Assembly: GCA_002690445.1 (NCBI GenBank)
Contig: NZER01000103.1
Span: 1-6,520 of the forward strand
Direction of reading: 5' to 3'
From: Candidatus Pacearchaeota archaeon
Lineage (GTDB): Archaea > Nanoarchaeota > Nanoarchaeia > Pacearchaeales > GW2011-AR1
Length of the DNA: 6,520 nt
This document shows, piece after piece, positions 1 to 6,520 of this stretch (its first letter is position 1; every line of letters starts with the position of its first letter). Made by a program: the position numbers and the translations under genes. The notes beneath the pieces were generated by a model. It saw only the letters and a program-made list of their open reading frames with translations. It was not told the DNA's origin and searched no databases.

Positions 1-1604
1 AAATAGGGAGCTTTTGGGAATTTGTTAGAGATATTTGGAGCCAAAGCTATGACCATCCTGAGTATTTTCAAGCATGGCATGTTGGTGTGCTTGCAGAGGA
101 TATTGAGGAATGCGTGGATGCTGGACTTAACTACTGTGCAGTACTACCCCGATTCCATTTTAAATCAACTATACTCGGACATGCGTTCTCAGTCTGGAGA
201 CTCTTAAAGGCTCCTAGAGATTGTTCTGTTCTTTATTTATCTTACAGTGATGGTATGGCTCGTTACCATATTTCTGAGATAAATAAAACAATTTATAGAA
301 ACCCTATTCTAAAAGATATGATGGTGAATAGGTCACCCAAGGCTGATTTCTCCGCTAGATTTTATTTAAATAAACAACCTATGGAAATCATGCATGGCGG
401 TCTTTTTTCATTTAAGAGAGGTTTGCATGTAAATGGGGCGTTGATTGCAGACGATGTGCTTCGTGACCCTGAGAATCCGTTAAACATAGGTCAGCTAACT
501 AAAGTAGAAGACCACTTTATGACTGAATCTTTGTTCATTCCTTTGAAGGGTGTACCAGTAATTGTGCTTGGAACTCCCATGATGCCTGGAGATTTACTTA
601 CTAAATTGAAGGATGATTCCCGTTTTAAATATAGAATACTCCCTGCGTTAGACCCTGCGCCTGGACGCAGAGTTTTAATGCCAGAACTGTATAACGAAGA
701 GTGGTTACTGCAACAACAAGCAGCTAGACCTAAATCCTTTGCTTCTGAATTTATGTTGGTTCCTCATTTCTCTACTGAGTCTTATTTTAGTGAGGAAGAC
801 ATTACTAAGTGTGAGGATGATACTTTACGTAATCATCCTGTTACTAAAGCTTATAATGATAGACTTCCTGCTGACCAAATCTTTGCAGGCTTCGATGTAG
901 GAAAGAAACGCCACCCATCCCATTTAGTAATCTTTAAGAAATCTGGAGATAGGATAGACGAGATTCATTCCTCCTTCTTAGACGGATGGAATTATTCTGA
1001 CCAGATAGCCTATCTAAATGAAGTGGCTGAAACATTTGATATTTCTAAAGGGTATATAGATAATACTAGAGGAGAACTTGAGGATAGGGGCTTAGACGCT
1101 AGGTGGCATGGTTTACACTTTACTTTAAAGAATAAGAATACTATGGCTCAGGTTTTTGAAGAATTTATACATAGTGGGCGTTTGCATTTAATAAGTGATG
1201 AAAGACAAAGGCAACAGATTCTATCTGTAAGTAATGAATTGAAAGCTCCAGAAACCCCTATGGGTCATGGTGATGCGTTCTTTTCGATAGCTCTAGCATT
1301 GTTGGCTTGCCATGAAACAGCCTATAAGTTTACTGATTTAGGCAATGCTGTAGATTGGCTTTCGGCTGTAAGCCCAGGAGAACAGAGAGGTGAAGGTTCA
1401 AACGAAGAAGAAAATAAAGTAGCTAAGTTAAAGGAATCTATAGTAGATAAGTTAAAAGTAGAACTATGGGAAAATCTAGACGGAAATCCAGCCGAAACGA
1501 GGCAGCAGAACGCACCCAATCCAACGTGCAGAGAAGCGATGTGCAATCCTTCCTTTTGGGTAAAAGAACGAAATTTGTGTATATATTGTGGACATAGAGG
1601 GTAA
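1..1604 (+). CDS. terL: Phage terminase large subunit (ATPase/nuclease), 5' end cut off by the window
   Basis: This is the DNA-packaging motor subunit: it translocates DNA into the prohead through the portal by ATP hydrolysis and cuts concatemers with an RNase H-like nuclease. The frame is open from the first complete codon at position 3 with no in-frame ATG, GTG or TTG before 87, and the early residues (WEFVRDIW..., HVGVLAEDIE) look like conserved TerL N-terminus, so the gene starts upstream. Numbering from position 3 (533 residues visible): a Walker A variant LPRFHFKST (about 48-56, Lys54), Walker B ALIADD (Asp150/Asp151), a coupling-type VIVLGTP (about 186-192), then the nuclease acidic residues Asp298 (GFDVG), Asp353 (YIDNTR) and Asp424 (GHGDAFFSIALA). 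A charged linker (about 455-500) leads to Cys509-x4-Cys514-x11-Cys526-x2-Cys529, a possible zinc site at the extreme C-terminus. It is 10 bases upstream of nrdJ. The TerL call is firm; the zinc site is inferred. Confidence 0.95.
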   Translation, partial: IGSFWEFVRDIWSQSYDHPEYFQAWHVGVLAEDIEECVDAGLNYCAVLPRFHFKSTILGHAFSVWRLLKAPRDCSVLYLSYSDGMARYHISEINKTIYRNPILKDMMVNRSPKADFSARFYLNKQPMEIMHGGLFSFKRGLHVNGALIADDVLRDPENPLNIGQLTKVEDHFMTESLFIPLKGVPVIVLGTPMMPGDLLTKLKDDSRFKYRILPALDPAPGRRVLMPELYNEEWLLQQQAARPKSFASEFMLVPHFSTESYFSEEDITKCEDDTLRNHPVTKAYNDRLPADQIFAGFDVGKKRHPSHLVIFKKSGDRIDEIHSSFLDGWNYSDQIAYLNEVAETFDISKGYIDNTRGELEDRGLDARWHGLHFTLKNKNTMAQVFEEFIHSGRLHLISDERQRQQILSVSNELKAPETPMGHGDAFFSIALALLACHETAYKFTDLGNAVDWLSAVSPGEQRGEGSNEEENKVAKLKESIVDKLKVELWENLDGNPAETRQQNAPNPTCREAMCNPSFWVKERNLCIYCGHRG

Positions 1605-1608
1605 GGAG
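1603..1608 (+). promoter_or_regulatory. Ribosome-binding site of nrdJ (AAGGAG)
   Basis: A perfect AAGGAG overlaps the terL stop codon and lies 6 bases before the ATG at 1615. It decides the nrdJ start in favour of ATG 1615 over the in-frame GTG at 1588, which lies inside terL and has no comparable purine-rich site before it. The overlap with the terL stop suggests the two genes are translationally coupled. Confidence 0.85.
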
Positions 1609-1614
1609 ATTAAA

Positions 1615-3474
1615 ATGACAACATTAACGGAACAAGCAGAAACCGTGGCGAAGAGCCGATACTACTTAAAGAATTCTGATGGAGCCATTGTAGAAGACGA
1701 AGTAGCCCTGTTTAGAAGGGTAGCAATGGCAATAGCTTCTATAGAACGTGAATATAATACTATAGAGAGTAAAATCCATCTTCTGACTAAAGAGTTTGAG
1801 ACTATGATGGCTAACCTAGAGTTCTTACCTAATTCACCTACGTTAATGAATGCAGGAACAGAACAAGGTACATTGAGTGCTTGTTTCGTATTACCGATAG
1901 AAGATAGCATGGAAGGTATTATGAAAGCTGCTACTGACTCTGCCTTGGTGCAGAAATTTGGTGGTGGCACAGGATTTTCCCTATCCACCATTAGACCGAA
2001 ACATTCTCGTATTTCCACTACTCATGGGAAGGCGTGTGGCCCCATAGAAGTACTGAAAACCCTTTCCCGTATCTCTAGTATGATAACACAGGGCGGTAAG
2101 CGTGACGGGGCTAACATGGCTGTTATGAGTGTGTATCACCCTGACATCCTAGAGTTCATTGATTGCAAACATGTAGAAGGTGATATTCATAACTTTAATA
2201 TCTCCGTTGGTGTAGACAGTGCGTTCATGCAATGTGTACGTGATAACACGGATTATACTTTGGTTAACCCACATACATTGGAAAATGCTGGCGAACTAAA
2301 TGCCCATGAGGTATTTGTTAGAATCATCGAAGGTGCATGGAGAAACGGAGAACCTGGGGTGGTATTTTTGGATACCATTAATAAGGATAACAAAGTATCC
2401 AAACAATTTGGGGATATAATCGCAACCAATCCTTGCGGTGAGCAGCCCCTGTTGGGATATGAAAGTTGCAATCTTGGTTCGATTAACTTAGCTAAATTCT
2501 ATAATCAAGATGATAATAGTATTAATTGGGTTAGACTAAGGAAAGTTGTGAATTTAGCCATTCGTTTCCTAGATAATGTAGTGGACGCTAACGACTATGC
2601 TGTTCCTGAGATTAGGGATATGACTAAAGCTACCCGTAAAATTGGTTTGGGTGTAATGGGCTTTGCCGATTTACTCATTCAATTAGGTATTCCCTATGAT
2701 ACTGAAGAGGCTGTTTCCGTGGGTAGTGAACTCATGGAGTACATAAATCAGATAGCCAGCGCAGCTTCTTTGGAATTGGGGGCTGTGAGAGGGGAATTCC
2801 CTGCTTGGGAAAAGAGTGATTATCCTGTACATGAAAACTATAGAAATGCTTGCCGTTTAACTGTGGCTCCTACTGGTACTATTTCTATGTTAGCGGATGC
2901 TTCTAACGGTATTGAACCTACATTTGCATTGGTGTGGAAGAAACAGAACATCCTAGAAGGAAAAACTCTGTACTATGTGAATAAGTATTTTGAAGCAGAT
3001 GCCCAAGAATTTGGATTCTATTCCGAAGACTTAATGGATTACTTAGCGGAAGGCAACAGTTTGCAGGATAGGGATGATGTACCTGATGCATTTAAAGAGT
3101 TATATGTAACAGCTTCTGACATAACTCCTGCTAACCACATTAAAATGCAGGCTGCTTTCCAAGAACATTGTGACTCTGGTATTTCTAAAACGATTAATTT
3201 ATCTCCTGATGCTACCCATAATGATGTATGGGATGCCTATATGAAGGCTTGGGAGAGCGGTTGTAAGGGTGTTACAGTATATAGGGCTGGAAGTAGGGAG
3301 AAGGAAGTGCTTGTTAGTGGACATGATGAGGATTATAAGGATGGACGAATGAATCCTAATCTAACTACGGACTCTCATATGGCATCTAAATGCTGTGAGT
3401 TACCATTTATTGTGATGGCTGCTGGATGTGAATCTTGTAAGAGTTGTGGTTGGAGTGCTTGCGCTGTTGCATAA
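1615..3474 (+). CDS. nrdJ: Class II adenosylcobalamin-dependent ribonucleotide reductase
   Basis: This cytoplasmic enzyme reduces ribonucleotides to deoxyribonucleotides using a radical generated from adenosylcobalamin, supplying precursors for phage DNA synthesis. The 619-residue product (from ATG 1615) has the NrdJ signature in order: PNSPTLMNAGT (about 72-82), first redox Cys90 in LSACFVLP, FGGGTGFS (115-122), GGKRDGANMA (160-169), active-site NPCGEQ with Asn272, Cys274 (thiyl radical) and Glu276, second redox Cys285 in SCNLGSINL, KIGLGVMGFADLL, and the phosphate-binding PTGTIS (419-424). The C-terminal tail has Cys605-x2-Cys608, Cys611 and Cys616, the usual NrdJ swinging-arm cysteines that re-reduce the active site, plus Cys593-Cys594. 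I see no N-terminal ATP-cone, so overall-activity control by ATP/dATP is probably absent. No intein or frameshift is visible. All catalytic residues are present, so it is probably active. It needs cobalamin from the host or medium and a host thioredoxin-type reductant. Confidence 0.97.
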   Translation: MTTLTEQAETVAKSRYYLKNSDGAIVEDEVALFRRVAMAIASIEREYNTIESKIHLLTKEFETMMANLEFLPNSPTLMNAGTEQGTLSACFVLPIEDSMEGIMKAATDSALVQKFGGGTGFSLSTIRPKHSRISTTHGKACGPIEVLKTLSRISSMITQGGKRDGANMAVMSVYHPDILEFIDCKHVEGDIHNFNISVGVDSAFMQCVRDNTDYTLVNPHTLENAGELNAHEVFVRIIEGAWRNGEPGVVFLDTINKDNKVSKQFGDIIATNPCGEQPLLGYESCNLGSINLAKFYNQDDNSINWVRLRKVVNLAIRFLDNVVDANDYAVPEIRDMTKATRKIGLGVMGFADLLIQLGIPYDTEEAVSVGSELMEYINQIASAASLELGAVRGEFPAWEKSDYPVHENYRNACRLTVAPTGTISMLADASNGIEPTFALVWKKQNILEGKTLYYVNKYFEADAQEFGFYSEDLMDYLAEGNSLQDRDDVPDAFKELYVTASDITPANHIKMQAAFQEHCDSGISKTINLSPDATHNDVWDAYMKAWESGCKGVTVYRAGSREKEVLVSGHDEDYKDGRMNPNLTTDSHMASKCCELPFIVMAAGCESCKSCGWSACAVA

Positions 3475-3495
3475 TCCGTGAAATTGTAGTATAAT
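3467..3495 (+). promoter_or_regulatory. Candidate sigma70/sigmaA-type promoter ahead of the structural genes
   Basis: A perfect -10 hexamer TATAAT (3490-3495) lies 17 bases after TTGCAT (3467-3472), which keeps the TTG of the -35 consensus. The -35 overlaps the last codons and stop of nrdJ. A start of transcription near 3501-3503 would leave a very short leader before the AGGAG (3505-3509) and ATG at 3517. This 42-base gap is the largest between genes in the window. It is a sequence match only; no hairpin terminator is seen before it, so read-through from nrdJ is also expected. Confidence 0.5.
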
Positions 3496-3516
3496 AAAGA
3501 ACAGAGGAGAAACATT

Positions 3517-3933
3517 ATGCCTATTGGTAGTTTATTGCAAGGAAGAGAGCAACAATACGTAGCGAATCAAGACGATAAAGGTACATGGCGTGTACTTGAT
3601 ACATGGCATGAAACCCTAAAGAATATGCAGCCTGACGATGATGTTGAAGATGATAATCCTGCCATCACTATTTTAACTGAGGGAGCGTTTATCGCACTCG
3701 TTAAAGAAGCTGCAAGAAGTGGAACGTTGGAAAATGCTAATTTTTCAGTTGAAGCTGCGGAAGTAGATGAAACTTTAGTGAATGAATTGAGACAACAGAT
3801 AAATGAATTAACTGTTGCATTAAATAGCGAGAAGCAAAATGTTGTGCTTTCTAAGAAATCACTAAAGGAAACCGCAATGGAACATGTAGTTAGGCTTGCT
3901 GCAATGGATGATATGAATAGCCTATCCCAATAA
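3517..3933 (+). CDS. Small acidic protein of unknown function, upstream of the portal gene
   Basis: A 138-residue protein that I do not recognise. The ATG is preceded by AGGAG with a 7-base spacer, so the start is well supported. The N-terminal part has a compact aromatic patch, GTWRVLDTWHETL (22-34), which could be a small beta fold. An acidic stretch follows (Asp40-Asp46 is mostly Asp/Glu). From about 50 to the end it looks helical, with Leu/Ile at 87, 91, 95, 98 and 102 suggesting a short coiled coil, then a Lys-rich turn and a Met/Asp-rich end. There is no signal peptide, membrane segment or cysteine. It lies between nrdJ and the portal gene, 16 bases from the latter, and probably shares the candidate promoter just before it. 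Position and coiled coil would fit a head-assembly accessory or small virion protein, but this is inference from neighbours only. Confidence 0.85.
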   Translation: MPIGSLLQGREQQYVANQDDKGTWRVLDTWHETLKNMQPDDDVEDDNPAITILTEGAFIALVKEAARSGTLENANFSVEAAEVDETLVNELRQQINELTVALNSEKQNVVLSKKSLKETAMEHVVRLAAMDDMNSLSQ

Positions 3934-3949
3934 AAGTAAGAGGCATTAA

Positions 3950-5890
3950 ATGAAGTTAGGAGAATATCTACCAGAAGTTCCCCAATTAGCTCAACAAATG
4001 ACTAATCTGAATCAACAGATTAACATGTTGGAGCTAATGAAAGGAACTGGTGAAACAGGACAAGCCCCTACTTTCGGCCTTGACCACGTTGTTAATACTT
4101 GGGTACGTCACCAGATGGCCTACCGTCAACAGTTAGTTATGGACTTGCAAACCATTTCTATGTCTGTTGAGGAAATACGTGGCCCTCTAGGACACATTAC
4201 TGGCGAGGTTTTTCGGAGGGGAATCACTTGGGAACCCACCATAGAGAACCCAGACCACTCACAACGAGAACGTTTTGAGGTATTCTTAGATGATTGTAAT
4301 CCATTTGACCAATCATTGGAAGAAGTGCTGAGACAGTTTCATTATGACGTAAACTCTATAGATGATGGATTCCTTTATATTGCTAAAGAATATAAAGATA
4401 TGGGTAGTGGTAACACTAATTCCAGAGTTACAGAAATCCGTAGACTGAATCCTGCATTAGTTGAGTTTGACTTAGATACGGCTGGTTTACCGAAGAACTC
4501 TCATTGGCTATGCCCAATTCATAGGGACGTTCTAGAATCCCCTGGTGTGTGTGAACACCCTGATTGCGACCAGAATACTATGCCAGCTATGTATAAATAC
4601 TATCATCGTAACCGTCATATGTATCTGTTTGATAATGAAGTAATCCATGTATCTAAGTTCTCTCCATCTGAAACATATGGATGGAGTCCTTTACTTACGG
4701 TATTTGAGAAGGCATTAACCCTGGTTGGGATGGATAAGAATATCTATAGATATTTCTTTGAACGGAAGATGCCAGCTAGTATGGTTATGGTAACAACTGA
4801 TGACCCTGAAAGTTTGCGTAGAGAGCGTGAACATATAGCTGCTCAAACAAGGCTTGACCCTAACTATATACCAATGGTAGCGGTTTCAGCCAGGAATCAA
4901 CGTGGTAGAGTTGACTTAGTGAGACTGTTCCATACGTTGCAGGAAATGGATTATCTTCCTGTACGTGAGGAAATACGTGAACGTGTTGCTGCTATGTGGG
5001 GCGTTACTCCCGCTTGGCAAGGCGCACCTGAAGCTTTTGGCGGTATGTCTACTCAGACTCAACAGCTAGTAGTTATGAGCCGTGTGGTGGAAGGTGACCA
5101 ACGTATCTTCCATGAAAAGGTTTTCCCCCAACTCTTAAAGATGTTTGGGATAACAGATTGGAAGATAGTACTTCCTCAACCTGAAGAAAAGGCTGAGAAT
5201 ACTCGATTAAGTTTCGCTCAACAGAAGGCCCAGATAATAAATCAGTTCGCTGCTTTAGGGTTTGAGATTAAACTTAAAGACCAAGATGTACCTTTGGACG
5301 AAGCTCAGTTTATAATTTCGGGTAAAATGGTTCCTTCTGCTCAAATGAATGGAGAGCAGCAAGCAATGGGAATACTCCAACAGAAACAACAGATGGAACA
5401 AATGGAACAACAGGCTCAAATGCAGCAGCAAATGGGTGGTATGGAAGGCGGTGAGGGTGGCGCACCTCCTGAGGAAGGCGGGGAAGAAGGTGCTATCCAA
5501 GCAATGCTCAAATCTATACCGCCCTCTCAGCGTAAGTTTAAAGGCCGTACTGCTGGACAAACTCCTACAGATGCCGATAAACATGATGGCACTGATGAAA
5601 TGAGAGACATAGATGATTATGCTGAAGCTAGAGCCAAGAAAAATATATTAACTCTTTCAAATACTTGGGTAGGGTCTTTGATGCAACACGGTTACAGTTC
5701 TCCAATAATTAAAGAAGTTACGGGGGATGGAAGTCAGATGTGGTTTGCTCAAGATGGGATAGACTACGTAGCAGATTTAAATGGGTCTGGAGTAACTAGT
5801 GTGTCTAAAGCTAAGTTCTCGCCCCCACCTAAAAGAACACCAGCAAAACATATAGACCAACCTGAGGTTCTAACTGATGAAGCTGAATAA
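3950..5890 (+). CDS. Phage portal protein, long form with Cys/His insertion and C-terminal extension
   Basis: The portal forms the dodecameric ring at one head vertex, docking the terminase and later the tail. The ATG follows AAGAGG with a 6-base spacer. In the 646-residue product, the core shows portal-like features: GEVFRRGITWEP after an N-terminal helical part, a DNEVIHVSKF strand (228-237) followed by TYGWSPL (242-248), the order typical of HK97-type portals, then a long helix and MWGVTPAWQGAPEAFGGMSTQT (from about 349), where portals usually carry a VP-type turn. Inserted before this is Cys188-x2-His191-x9-Cys201-x1-His203-x2-Cys206, a possible zinc knuckle. From about 470 to 515 the chain is Gln/Met- then Gly/Glu-rich, followed by a further 130 residues with a small folded-looking segment (GYSSPIIKEVTGDGSQMWFA) not part of the usual core. 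It is longer than typical 400-550-residue portals. The call rests on pattern plus adjacency to TerL. Confidence 0.92.
   Translation: MKLGEYLPEVPQLAQQMTNLNQQINMLELMKGTGETGQAPTFGLDHVVNTWVRHQMAYRQQLVMDLQTISMSVEEIRGPLGHITGEVFRRGITWEPTIENPDHSQRERFEVFLDDCNPFDQSLEEVLRQFHYDVNSIDDGFLYIAKEYKDMGSGNTNSRVTEIRRLNPALVEFDLDTAGLPKNSHWLCPIHRDVLESPGVCEHPDCDQNTMPAMYKYYHRNRHMYLFDNEVIHVSKFSPSETYGWSPLLTVFEKALTLVGMDKNIYRYFFERKMPASMVMVTTDDPESLRREREHIAAQTRLDPNYIPMVAVSARNQRGRVDLVRLFHTLQEMDYLPVREEIRERVAAMWGVTPAWQGAPEAFGGMSTQTQQLVVMSRVVEGDQRIFHEKVFPQLLKMFGITDWKIVLPQPEEKAENTRLSFAQQKAQIINQFAALGFEIKLKDQDVPLDEAQFIISGKMVPSAQMNGEQQAMGILQQKQQMEQMEQQAQMQQQMGGMEGGEGGAPPEEGGEEGAIQAMLKSIPPSQRKFKGRTAGQTPTDADKHDGTDEMRDIDDYAEARAKKNILTLSNTWVGSLMQHGYSSPIIKEVTGDGSQMWFAQDGIDYVADLNGSGVTSVSKAKFSPPPKRTPAKHIDQPEVLTDEAE
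5357..5494 (+). repeat. Low-complexity Gln/Met then Gly/Glu-rich coding tract in the portal gene
   Basis: CAG/CAA/ATG codons are repeated in an irregular QQ/QM/ME pattern (portal residues about 470-500), then GGN/GAN codons give a Gly/Glu/Pro-rich stretch to about 515. It separates the portal core from its C-terminal extension and is probably a flexible linker or an extended helix ending in a disordered hinge. Open frames on the other strand and in the neighbouring frame here (5255-5584 and 5349-5603) are by-products of this composition. Confidence 0.7.
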
Positions 5891-6520
5891 ATCTACCAAA
5901 GTTGACAAAGATGAAGTCATGTATAGACATGCTACAGAGTCTGAATTAGACAAAGATTATGTCTGCGGTAAGTGCTTATATTTTGATAATGGGAAATGTG
6001 AATTGGTTAAAGGTGATATTAATCCAGAACATTGGTGCAGGCTATTCGTTACAGAATTAGCCAAGGATGAAGTTCATATGCAATTATCTAATATAATTAA
6101 CAAGGAAGATGGTGGTGGTGTTGGCTTTGGAAGCGAGACAGGTGGCACGGTTTGGACTTCTAATAACCCTGGTGGGTTCACTAGAACGCATGGGGATAAT
6201 CGTAGCCCGAAGAAGAAGAAACGTGGTGTTGACCATTTAGTAGATTTTGTAACGGAAAATAGCCCCGAACAGAAAATGATGAAGCAGGAATCTCATTCTG
6301 TTGCTGGTCATGGATTTATGGGGCCACTTCAGAACGAACCTGATTGGAAGAAAAAACGAAGGGAAACTGATAATCCTAATCCAGTAGAACCGAAGGAACA
6401 TGCTATGGAAGGTATGAAAGACCAAGCTGCGGTAGACCAAAATTCATTTACTAACCGATTAGTTGGGAAAGTTAAAGAAGATAGAAAACGTAAGGGTAGT
6501 AGTGCAGAGATTCAAGACAC
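5877..6520 (+). CDS. Protein with a HiPIP-like four-cysteine motif, 3' end beyond the window; function unknown
   Basis: The frame runs from ATG 5877 to the window edge without a stop (214 complete codons). The ATG overlaps the end of the portal gene by 14 bases and follows GAGG (5864-5867) with a 9-base spacer; the next in-frame ATG (5919) has no visible ribosome-binding site. Residues 30-57 carry Cys30-x2-Cys33-x7-Cys41-x12-Cys54 with a KGDINPEHWCRLF ending. That closely resembles the C-terminal cysteine signature of high-potential iron-sulfur proteins (Cys, hydrophobic, aromatic-Cys-x2-aromatic), with His52 where Gly is usual and a shorter middle spacing. A Gly-rich stretch (79-106) follows, then a basic PKKKKRG (111-117), a GHGFMGPL motif (144-151), and a charged, probably disordered region with KKKRR (158-162). 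There is no signal peptide or membrane segment. The position after the portal is where tailed phages usually keep the prohead protease, scaffold or head proteins, but I see no protease motif in the visible part. The gene is firm; iron-sulfur binding is inference. Confidence 0.87.
   Translation, partial: MKLNKSTKVDKDEVMYRHATESELDKDYVCGKCLYFDNGKCELVKGDINPEHWCRLFVTELAKDEVHMQLSNIINKEDGGGVGFGSETGGTVWTSNNPGGFTRTHGDNRSPKKKKRGVDHLVDFVTENSPEQKMMKQESHSVAGHGFMGPLQNEPDWKKKRRETDNPNPVEPKEHAMEGMKDQAAVDQNSFTNRLVGKVKEDRKRKGSSAEIQD

Follow-up and report, generated by a model that had tools for sequence, protein, structure and literature searches.

Avoidance of restriction sites is a known phenomenon in viruses of prokaryotes. 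A survey of such viruses, in the sections available, describes short palindromic sites of host restriction enzymes as under-represented in viral DNA, with GATC among the most consistent cases, and reports too few GATC sites in every one of 46 phages with hosts that have matching GATC Type IIM enzymes (PMC6286503). According to the accessible part of a study of the HF1 group of haloviruses, GATC and CTAG are wholly absent from seven isolates and several further palindromes are depleted (PMC7230728). The portion available of work on archaeal tailed viruses likewise describes relatives in which GATC is either frequent or lacking, the frequent state being tied to a virus-encoded Dam methyltransferase like that of phiCh1 (PMC8651126). 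The absence of GATC from phiX174 has been linked to mismatch repair, with the cause left open in the excerpt at hand (PMC5014478), and GATC methyltransferases have, in the pages available, been described in sea-ice phages (PMC12570018). Here we analyse a 6,520-nucleotide stretch of DNA, referred to throughout as the window, that has no GATC, together with its relatives. The notable feature is that, within a single uncultured family, sites are switched cleanly, repeatedly and one by one.

Results

The window is a piece of an uncultured tailed-phage family

The window is a complete IMG/VR record of 6520 bases, and the rest-of-genome check was therefore run on relatives. Its features are as follows.

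3..1604, forward strand: terminase large subunit, 5' end truncated by the edge of the record (phrog_38, E 2.5e-24)
1588..3474, forward strand: ribonucleotide reductase, judged class II-like from the top annotated matches (PF02867, E 4.8e-129)
3517..3933, forward strand: 138-aa protein between reductase and portal, function unassigned, no family over cut-off
3950..5890, forward strand: portal protein, the family marker (phrog_18178, E 6e-37; PF04860, E 1.6e-8, below the PF04860 cut-off)
5877..6518, forward strand: open reading frame open at its 3' end, no family match (ORF call)
1..6520, no strand: GATC-free stretch, also without GGWCC, CCGG and CGCG (word counts and shuffle)

No tblastn match to the terminase and no close nucleotide relative of the window was found among 50,697 phage records, and the portal matched only 10 of them, all viruses of haloarchaea or Methanomassiliicoccales at 24-28% identity. 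Portal homologues, some of them named by Tara, made up 980 of 7998 scored candidates in a large protein collection. The best annotated phage matches of the reductase (38-44% identity) include B12-dependent and class II enzymes, its class being assigned from these matches and not from active-site residues. The reductase gene is located between those for terminase and portal, and an open reading frame of 614-640 aa occupies the same position in L001, L024 and L017. A further observation in the family is a 1166-aa protein in which the core of a eukaryote-type topoisomerase I is fused to the head of a CCA-adding/poly(A) polymerase and to an HD domain (L024:9185-12685; also L025:4232-7732). A literature search, with most subscription journals outside its reach, found nothing on the family or its site states.

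Among long relatives, L001 is the nearest to the window, with 96% portal identity. L001 encodes RecA, a family A DNA polymerase and DnaB-type and DnaG-type domains, and L090 encodes a sigma-70 region 4 protein; in contrast to the archaeal viruses matched by the portal, these point to bacteria, which are the probable hosts of the family. When a host was sought in a genome collection there was a single match, a 109.9-kb contig of a Daviesbacteria MAG from groundwater (JACOXG010000010.1; L039, L145-L150). Since 38 of its 119 open reading frames of 80 aa or more match proteins of the window's family, we take it to be a phage contig from a distant family member, its bin being weak evidence of host; in the 21.8 kb counted it has 39 GATC against 62 expected and 8 GGWCC against 13 expected. 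A tRNA scan of 34 family loci for a host clue yielded one tRNA-Leu.

GATC is the most depleted tetramer of the window

The first-pass annotation had reported that the window has no GATC, with about 78 ATC trinucleotides and 15-25 GATC sites expected. Our counts agree: GATC is present 0 times in 6520 bases and ATC exactly 78 times, and the expected number of GATC is 19.95 under a second-order Markov model or 23.0 from base composition. Of the 256 tetramers, GATC shows the strongest depletion (z -4.4). When synonymous codons were permuted within the five open reading frames, leaving proteins and codon usage unchanged, the shuffled sequences had 21.2 +- 3.2 GATC with a minimum of 11, and none of 5000 runs reached zero. 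CTAG, GTAC, CATG, AGCT, GGCC and GGSCC were all at expectation in this shuffle. The four palindromes previously listed as present are indeed there (GGCC 7, GCGC 5, TCGA 5, ACGT 22), but that survey had overlooked the absence of three others: CCGG (7.5 expected, 0 of 5000 shuffles that low), GGWCC (4.8 expected, 7 of 5000) and CGCG (3.7 expected, 90 of 5000).

GATC-free and GATC-bearing relatives occur side by side

Relatives were gathered by portal searches of IMG/VR and the genome collection, with extra sequence fetched for longer contigs, giving 166 contigs (2.1 Mb) including the window after the removal of six loci that repeated contigs already in the set. Selection was by similarity to three portal proteins and to one alignment, two of the searches contributing the best 80 of 375 and the best 80 of 444 matches, and some contigs are covered in part (for example 41,141 of the 43,056 bases of the contig of L092). 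The lack of GATC extends well beyond the window, L001 having none in 24.7 kb where 71 are expected. Exactly zero GATC was found in 88 of the 166 contigs (995 kb, 2537 expected), a frequency biased by the choice of the best 80 of 375 and best 80 of 444 matches and by the inclusion of near-identical contigs. As ratios to expectation, the other 78 comprise 9 between 0 and 0.1, 15 at 0.1-0.4 and 54 above 0.4, with a maximum of 1.16. Among the first 105 contigs, 72 have zero GATC (859 kb, 2187 expected), the longest of them 66.9 kb (0 against 162 expected), and the GATC-bearing members are mostly slightly below expectation, with ratios of 0.49-1.05. Zero counts are not seen for CTAG, GTAC, CATG or AGCT in any of the 166 contigs, nor for TGCA in any of 165.

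Eighty pelagiphage contigs from the same collection (L175-L254), retrieved with the terminase of Pelagibacter phage HTVC010P, have a median GATC ratio of 1.00 and none is at zero; they are valid as a control for GATC only. The same contigs are depleted elsewhere (observed against expected: GGCC 0/238, GCGC 21/345, GGTACC 1/101, GAATTC 8/103), which looks like another restriction-like pattern, in a host group not expected to restrict.

The two states of the window's family co-occur in individual datasets (GATC-free contigs first, then GATC-bearing; observed/expected GATC), which argues against a library artefact.

Dataset 3300032820: L001 0/71, L078 0/45; L079 98/133
Dataset 3300025128: L047 0/47; L046 101/141
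Dataset 3300046467: L015 0/162; L058 36/49
Dataset 3300030419: L064 0/17, L083 0/19; L066 55/68
Dataset 3300009409: L009 0/9; L042 33/31
Dataset 3300007963: L112 0/22; L044 24/36
Dataset 3300002484: L050 0/23, L068 0/20; L091 72/91
Dataset 3300025141: L057 0/10; L090 162/217

Codon choice closes every phase in which GATC can form

We compared codon use in GATC-poor contigs (under 0.1 of expectation) with that in GATC-bearing ones (above 0.4), the comparison covering open reading frames above about 100 aa and omitting L039 and the contigs at 0.1-0.4 (L100, L113, L114). Aspartate before C is encoded by GAT in 2 of 2090 cases in GATC-poor contigs, against 800 of 1274 in GATC-bearing ones, and before other bases the GATC-poor contigs use GAT at 0.70-0.81. 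For isoleucine after G the codon ATC is used once in 2871 cases against 136 in 1753, its share after other bases in GATC-poor contigs being 0.11-0.14, and serine after a codon ending in GA is encoded by TCN in none of 413 cases against 249 of 475. All three codon phases able to form GATC are thus closed through codon choice, and the amino acids are retained.

Aligned pairs of relatives show what takes the place of GATC. Where the GATC-bearing L071, L076 and L082 align with the GATC-free L048, L092 and L047, respectively 43, 75 and 35 GATC sites are, as they must be, all replaced, and CTAG is retained at 22 of 59, 27 of 91 and 17 of 33 sites. One GATC of L071 is listed as kept against L045 and against L097, although both of these have zero; we take this to be an insertion within the aligned word. 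The commonest replacement in the three pairs is GACC (15, 14 and 15 sites), which is a T to C change and therefore not cytosine deamination.

The GATC state has switched repeatedly

A quick portal tree demands 10 or more changes of the GATC-free label, and well-supported branches force 5 of these; when labels are shuffled on the same tree, the mean is 24.9. The tree holds 102 of the 105 contigs, portal pieces under 350 aa being omitted, and gives no direction of change; L018, L060 and L073, with one GATC each, were scored with the GATC-free group. The purge is exact at the level of DNA over all examined sequence of the GATC-free contigs, and the state has switched repeatedly. Selection against the DNA word GATC is well supported by the switching between synonymous codons, the complete lack of the site over 995 kb, the recurrent changes of state across the portal tree and the presence of both states within datasets.

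One clade stands between the two states. In L018, L113, L114 and relatives such as L159-L161 and L257-L260 the ratio to expectation is roughly 0.06 to 0.3, with GATC dispersed along the contig (L114: 32 against 169 expected), and a 4.4-kb member, L103, has zero. This lineage is either regaining or still losing the site.

No gene was found to track the GATC state among 352 protein clusters in 37 contigs of 14 kb or more, L114 being omitted. The cluster best associated with the GATC-free state occurs in 6 of 18 GATC-free and 0 of 19 GATC-bearing long contigs. The best marker of the opposite state, a small protein weakly similar to glutaredoxin (8 of 19 GATC-bearing, 0 of 18 GATC-free long contigs, uncorrected for shared history or for the 352 clusters tested), was rejected, as it is present in the short GATC-free contig L072.

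Other palindromes are purged independently of GATC

Several further palindromes are missing from, or depleted in, individual clades, GATC-bearing ones included (observed/expected).

Window's clade: GGWCC 0/47, CCGG 0/39, CGCG 0/22, CCATGG 0/16, CTGCAG 0/13
Clade B: GGWCC 0/195, TGGCCA 0/44, CTGCAG 0/43, GGGCCC 0/40
Clades K, M, N, P: CCWGG 0/48, 2/138, 0/60, 0/64, respectively
Clades K, M, N, P: GCGC 0/27, 2/58, 0/27, 0/27, respectively
GATC-bearing clades E, F: CCWGG 7/68, 0/57; GGWCC 0/38, 0/39, respectively

GAATTC is also purged in clades K, M and N. In the pooled clades O, Q, R and S, GATC is the sole tested palindrome past the depletion threshold, and in pooled clade J only GATC and TTCGAA are; some of these five clades are short. 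Individual members of clade J vary, L109 having CCWGG at 0/12 and GGCC at 0/11.

Degenerate sites are treated as an enzyme would treat them, the W form being purged and the S form spared. Where at least 8 sites are expected, 30 of 80 contigs have no GGWCC and none of 36 lacks GGSCC, while 41 of 101 have no CCWGG and none of 22 lacks CCSGG. In the GATC-poor pool, 2 of the 16 palindromic tetramers fall below 0.35 of expectation and none of the 240 non-palindromic ones does; for hexamers the figures are 9 of 52 (palindromic) and 7 of 3873 (non-palindromic). GATC and CCWGG states occur in every one of the four possible combinations, each of them common (33, 44, 34 and 36 contigs), and the purge of GATC runs independently of that of the other palindromes. 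This pattern is the expected footprint of Type II restriction, and neither mismatch repair nor mutation bias predicts it.

Few methyltransferases accompany either state

No D12 methyltransferase was found in 29 GATC-bearing or intermediate records, which include all 26 viral GATC-bearing contigs of the first set, nor in 14 records searched earlier, and 48 records gave no match to the Dam family. Searches for C5 and N6/N4 methyltransferases each gave one match, the former in the GATC-free L109 (of 48 records) and the latter in the GATC-bearing L054 (of 49). The Dam, N6/N4 and C5 searches took in 21 of the 26 viral GATC-bearing contigs, all methyltransferase searches predate 61 later-added contigs, and most contigs are partial. 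In the 71.5-kb GATC-bearing L090, no methyltransferase family was found in 28 of its 72 open reading frames of 90 aa or more. As four families searched in mostly partial contigs gave these two matches, in opposite states, phage methyltransferases were set aside as the less likely cause of the GATC state.

The C5 cytosine methyltransferase of L109's contig (L151:1364-2527) has M.HhaI as its nearest solved relative, and that GATC-free contig has GCGC at 0/4, GGCC at 0/11 and CCWGG at 0/12 of expectation. The N6/N4-type enzyme has 308 aa and lies on the GATC-bearing contig of L054 (L152:732-1658), where CCWGG is normal at 45/41, against 0/58 in L090. The contig of L090 (L131:9424-10569 and a further set) also shows similarity to the defence protein NsnA (E 2.1e-14), and one of its 28 scanned proteins has a GmrSD N-terminal domain.

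Discussion

The first-pass annotation had explained the missing site by selection, either through restriction enzymes that cut GATC or through another GATC-dependent host process, an interpretation that holds in part. Selection against the word itself is now well supported, and since palindromes like those of Type II enzymes are lost just as precisely, whether or not GATC is lost too, restriction is strongly suggested as the agent; the GATC enzyme is the part that we infer. The explanation that we consider probable, if far from certain, is that the family sheds the restriction sites of its hosts, largely by synonymous change, and that hosts of the window's lineage have or had a GATC-cutting enzyme that the hosts of other lineages do without. 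According to this explanation, hosts of the window's lineage would carry, or would recently have carried, an enzyme that cuts unprotected GATC, the simplest candidate being a Type II restriction-modification system such as those of DpnII, MboI or Sau3AI. Recognition sites would be lost mainly via synonymous substitution, the cost of a single GATC would be high enough that none is tolerated, and lineages on hosts without the enzyme would retain GATC near its random frequency. Restriction as the agent, with hosts that differ between lineages, would thus account for both states. Several findings count against it: clades O, Q, R, S and J have lost GATC but hardly any other site, simple on/off restriction by the host does not explain the intermediate clade without a recent change, GATC-bearing members themselves mostly have slightly less GATC than expected, and the near-absence of methyltransferases from them comes from partial contigs and few families. 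Another GATC-dependent host process may be at work, above all in these five pooled clades, where little or nothing besides GATC was found purged.

It is unlikely that the host enzyme instead requires a mark, whether as a methyl-dependent (Type IIM/IV, DpnI-like) enzyme cutting Dam-methylated GATC or as a system linked to phosphorothioation of GATC, from which the phage would escape by lacking the site. Such an enzyme would leave an identical signature in the sequence, yet the other purged words (GGWCC, CCWGG, GGCC, GCGC, GAATTC) resemble what we take to be the sites of ordinary Type II enzymes, and a special mechanism for GATC is less economical. In the sections available, Type IIM enzymes of GATC specificity accompany avoidance in 46 of 46 phages (PMC6286503), and restriction of Dam-methylated DNA and a GATC phosphorothioation system are discussed for haloarchaea (PMC7230728). 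Mismatch repair, in which MutH of a host Dam/MutHLS system would nick GATC in under-methylated, fast-replicating phage DNA until the site is lost, is quite improbable as the general cause. It draws on phiX174, which according to the excerpt at hand has no GATC where about 20 are expected and in which added sites reduce the mutation rate 8-fold (PMC5014478), and also on clades O, Q, R and S, where no other tested palindrome passes the threshold. In the window's clade and most others GATC is not the only purged palindrome, and mismatch repair does not predict the loss of GGWCC, CCWGG, GCGC, CTGCAG and others; moreover, the GATC-free state recurs across the portal tree, while MutH and Dam are known only from a part of the bacteria. 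Mismatch repair has been proposed for enterobacteriophages and for phiX174, with Deschavanne and Radman 1991 cited in that account (PMC5014478).

As to why some members keep GATC, differences between hosts, some lacking the enzyme, are the likeliest reason, because the methyltransferase families searched gave one match among GATC-bearing records, in contigs that are mostly partial. It is unlikely that two answers to the same host enzyme alternate in the family, with some lineages purging GATC and others keeping it under a GATC-specific protection so far unrecognised (a new methyltransferase, a modification or an anti-restriction protein). A phage-encoded GATC-specific nuclease that destroys host DNA would also oblige the phage to lack the site, and L001 does encode a 117-aa nuclease-like protein (DUF559, with a weak match to a methyl-directed Type II enzyme); this is very improbable, given that both states share its cluster (16 of the 18 long GATC-free contigs, 14 of the 19 long GATC-bearing ones) and that no cluster marks the GATC-free state (at best 6 of 18 against 0 of 19, in partial contigs). 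Artefact or mutation bias, through library treatment, assembly, base composition or deamination of methylated bases, is hardly credible, and nothing in its favour emerged: composition and codon use were controlled by the Markov expectation and the synonymous shuffle, the two states are found side by side within datasets, GATC is at expectation in the pelagiphage contigs drawn from that collection, and deamination of methyladenine, although it could yield GACC, would not give an exact zero.

Uncultured phages seldom reveal their hosts. In this family every lineage registers several restriction-like specificities as on or off, each independently of the others. The phage DNA thereby offers a readout of the restriction repertoire of its hosts, which can help in searching for those hosts. 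Where related GATC-free and GATC-bearing members share samples, they also amount to a natural experiment on how a site is shed and regained.

The known systems differ from this family in instructive ways. The host enzymes are known in those covered by the available sections of the avoidance survey (PMC6286503), whereas here GATC is missing entirely over hundreds of kilobases, closely related members differ in state and the enzyme is deduced from the pattern. PhiX174 is likewise GATC-free, as far as its account is accessible (PMC5014478), but the window's family also purges other restriction-like palindromes. In the archaeal tailed viruses, according to the portion available (PMC8651126), a Dam methyltransferase goes with the frequent state, whereas in this family 29 GATC-bearing or intermediate records gave no D12 match and 48 records no Dam match. 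The HF1-group haloviruses, as described in the part at hand (PMC7230728), share the absence of GATC with the window's lineage but differ in their haloarchaeal hosts and in CTAG, which is near normal in the window's family.
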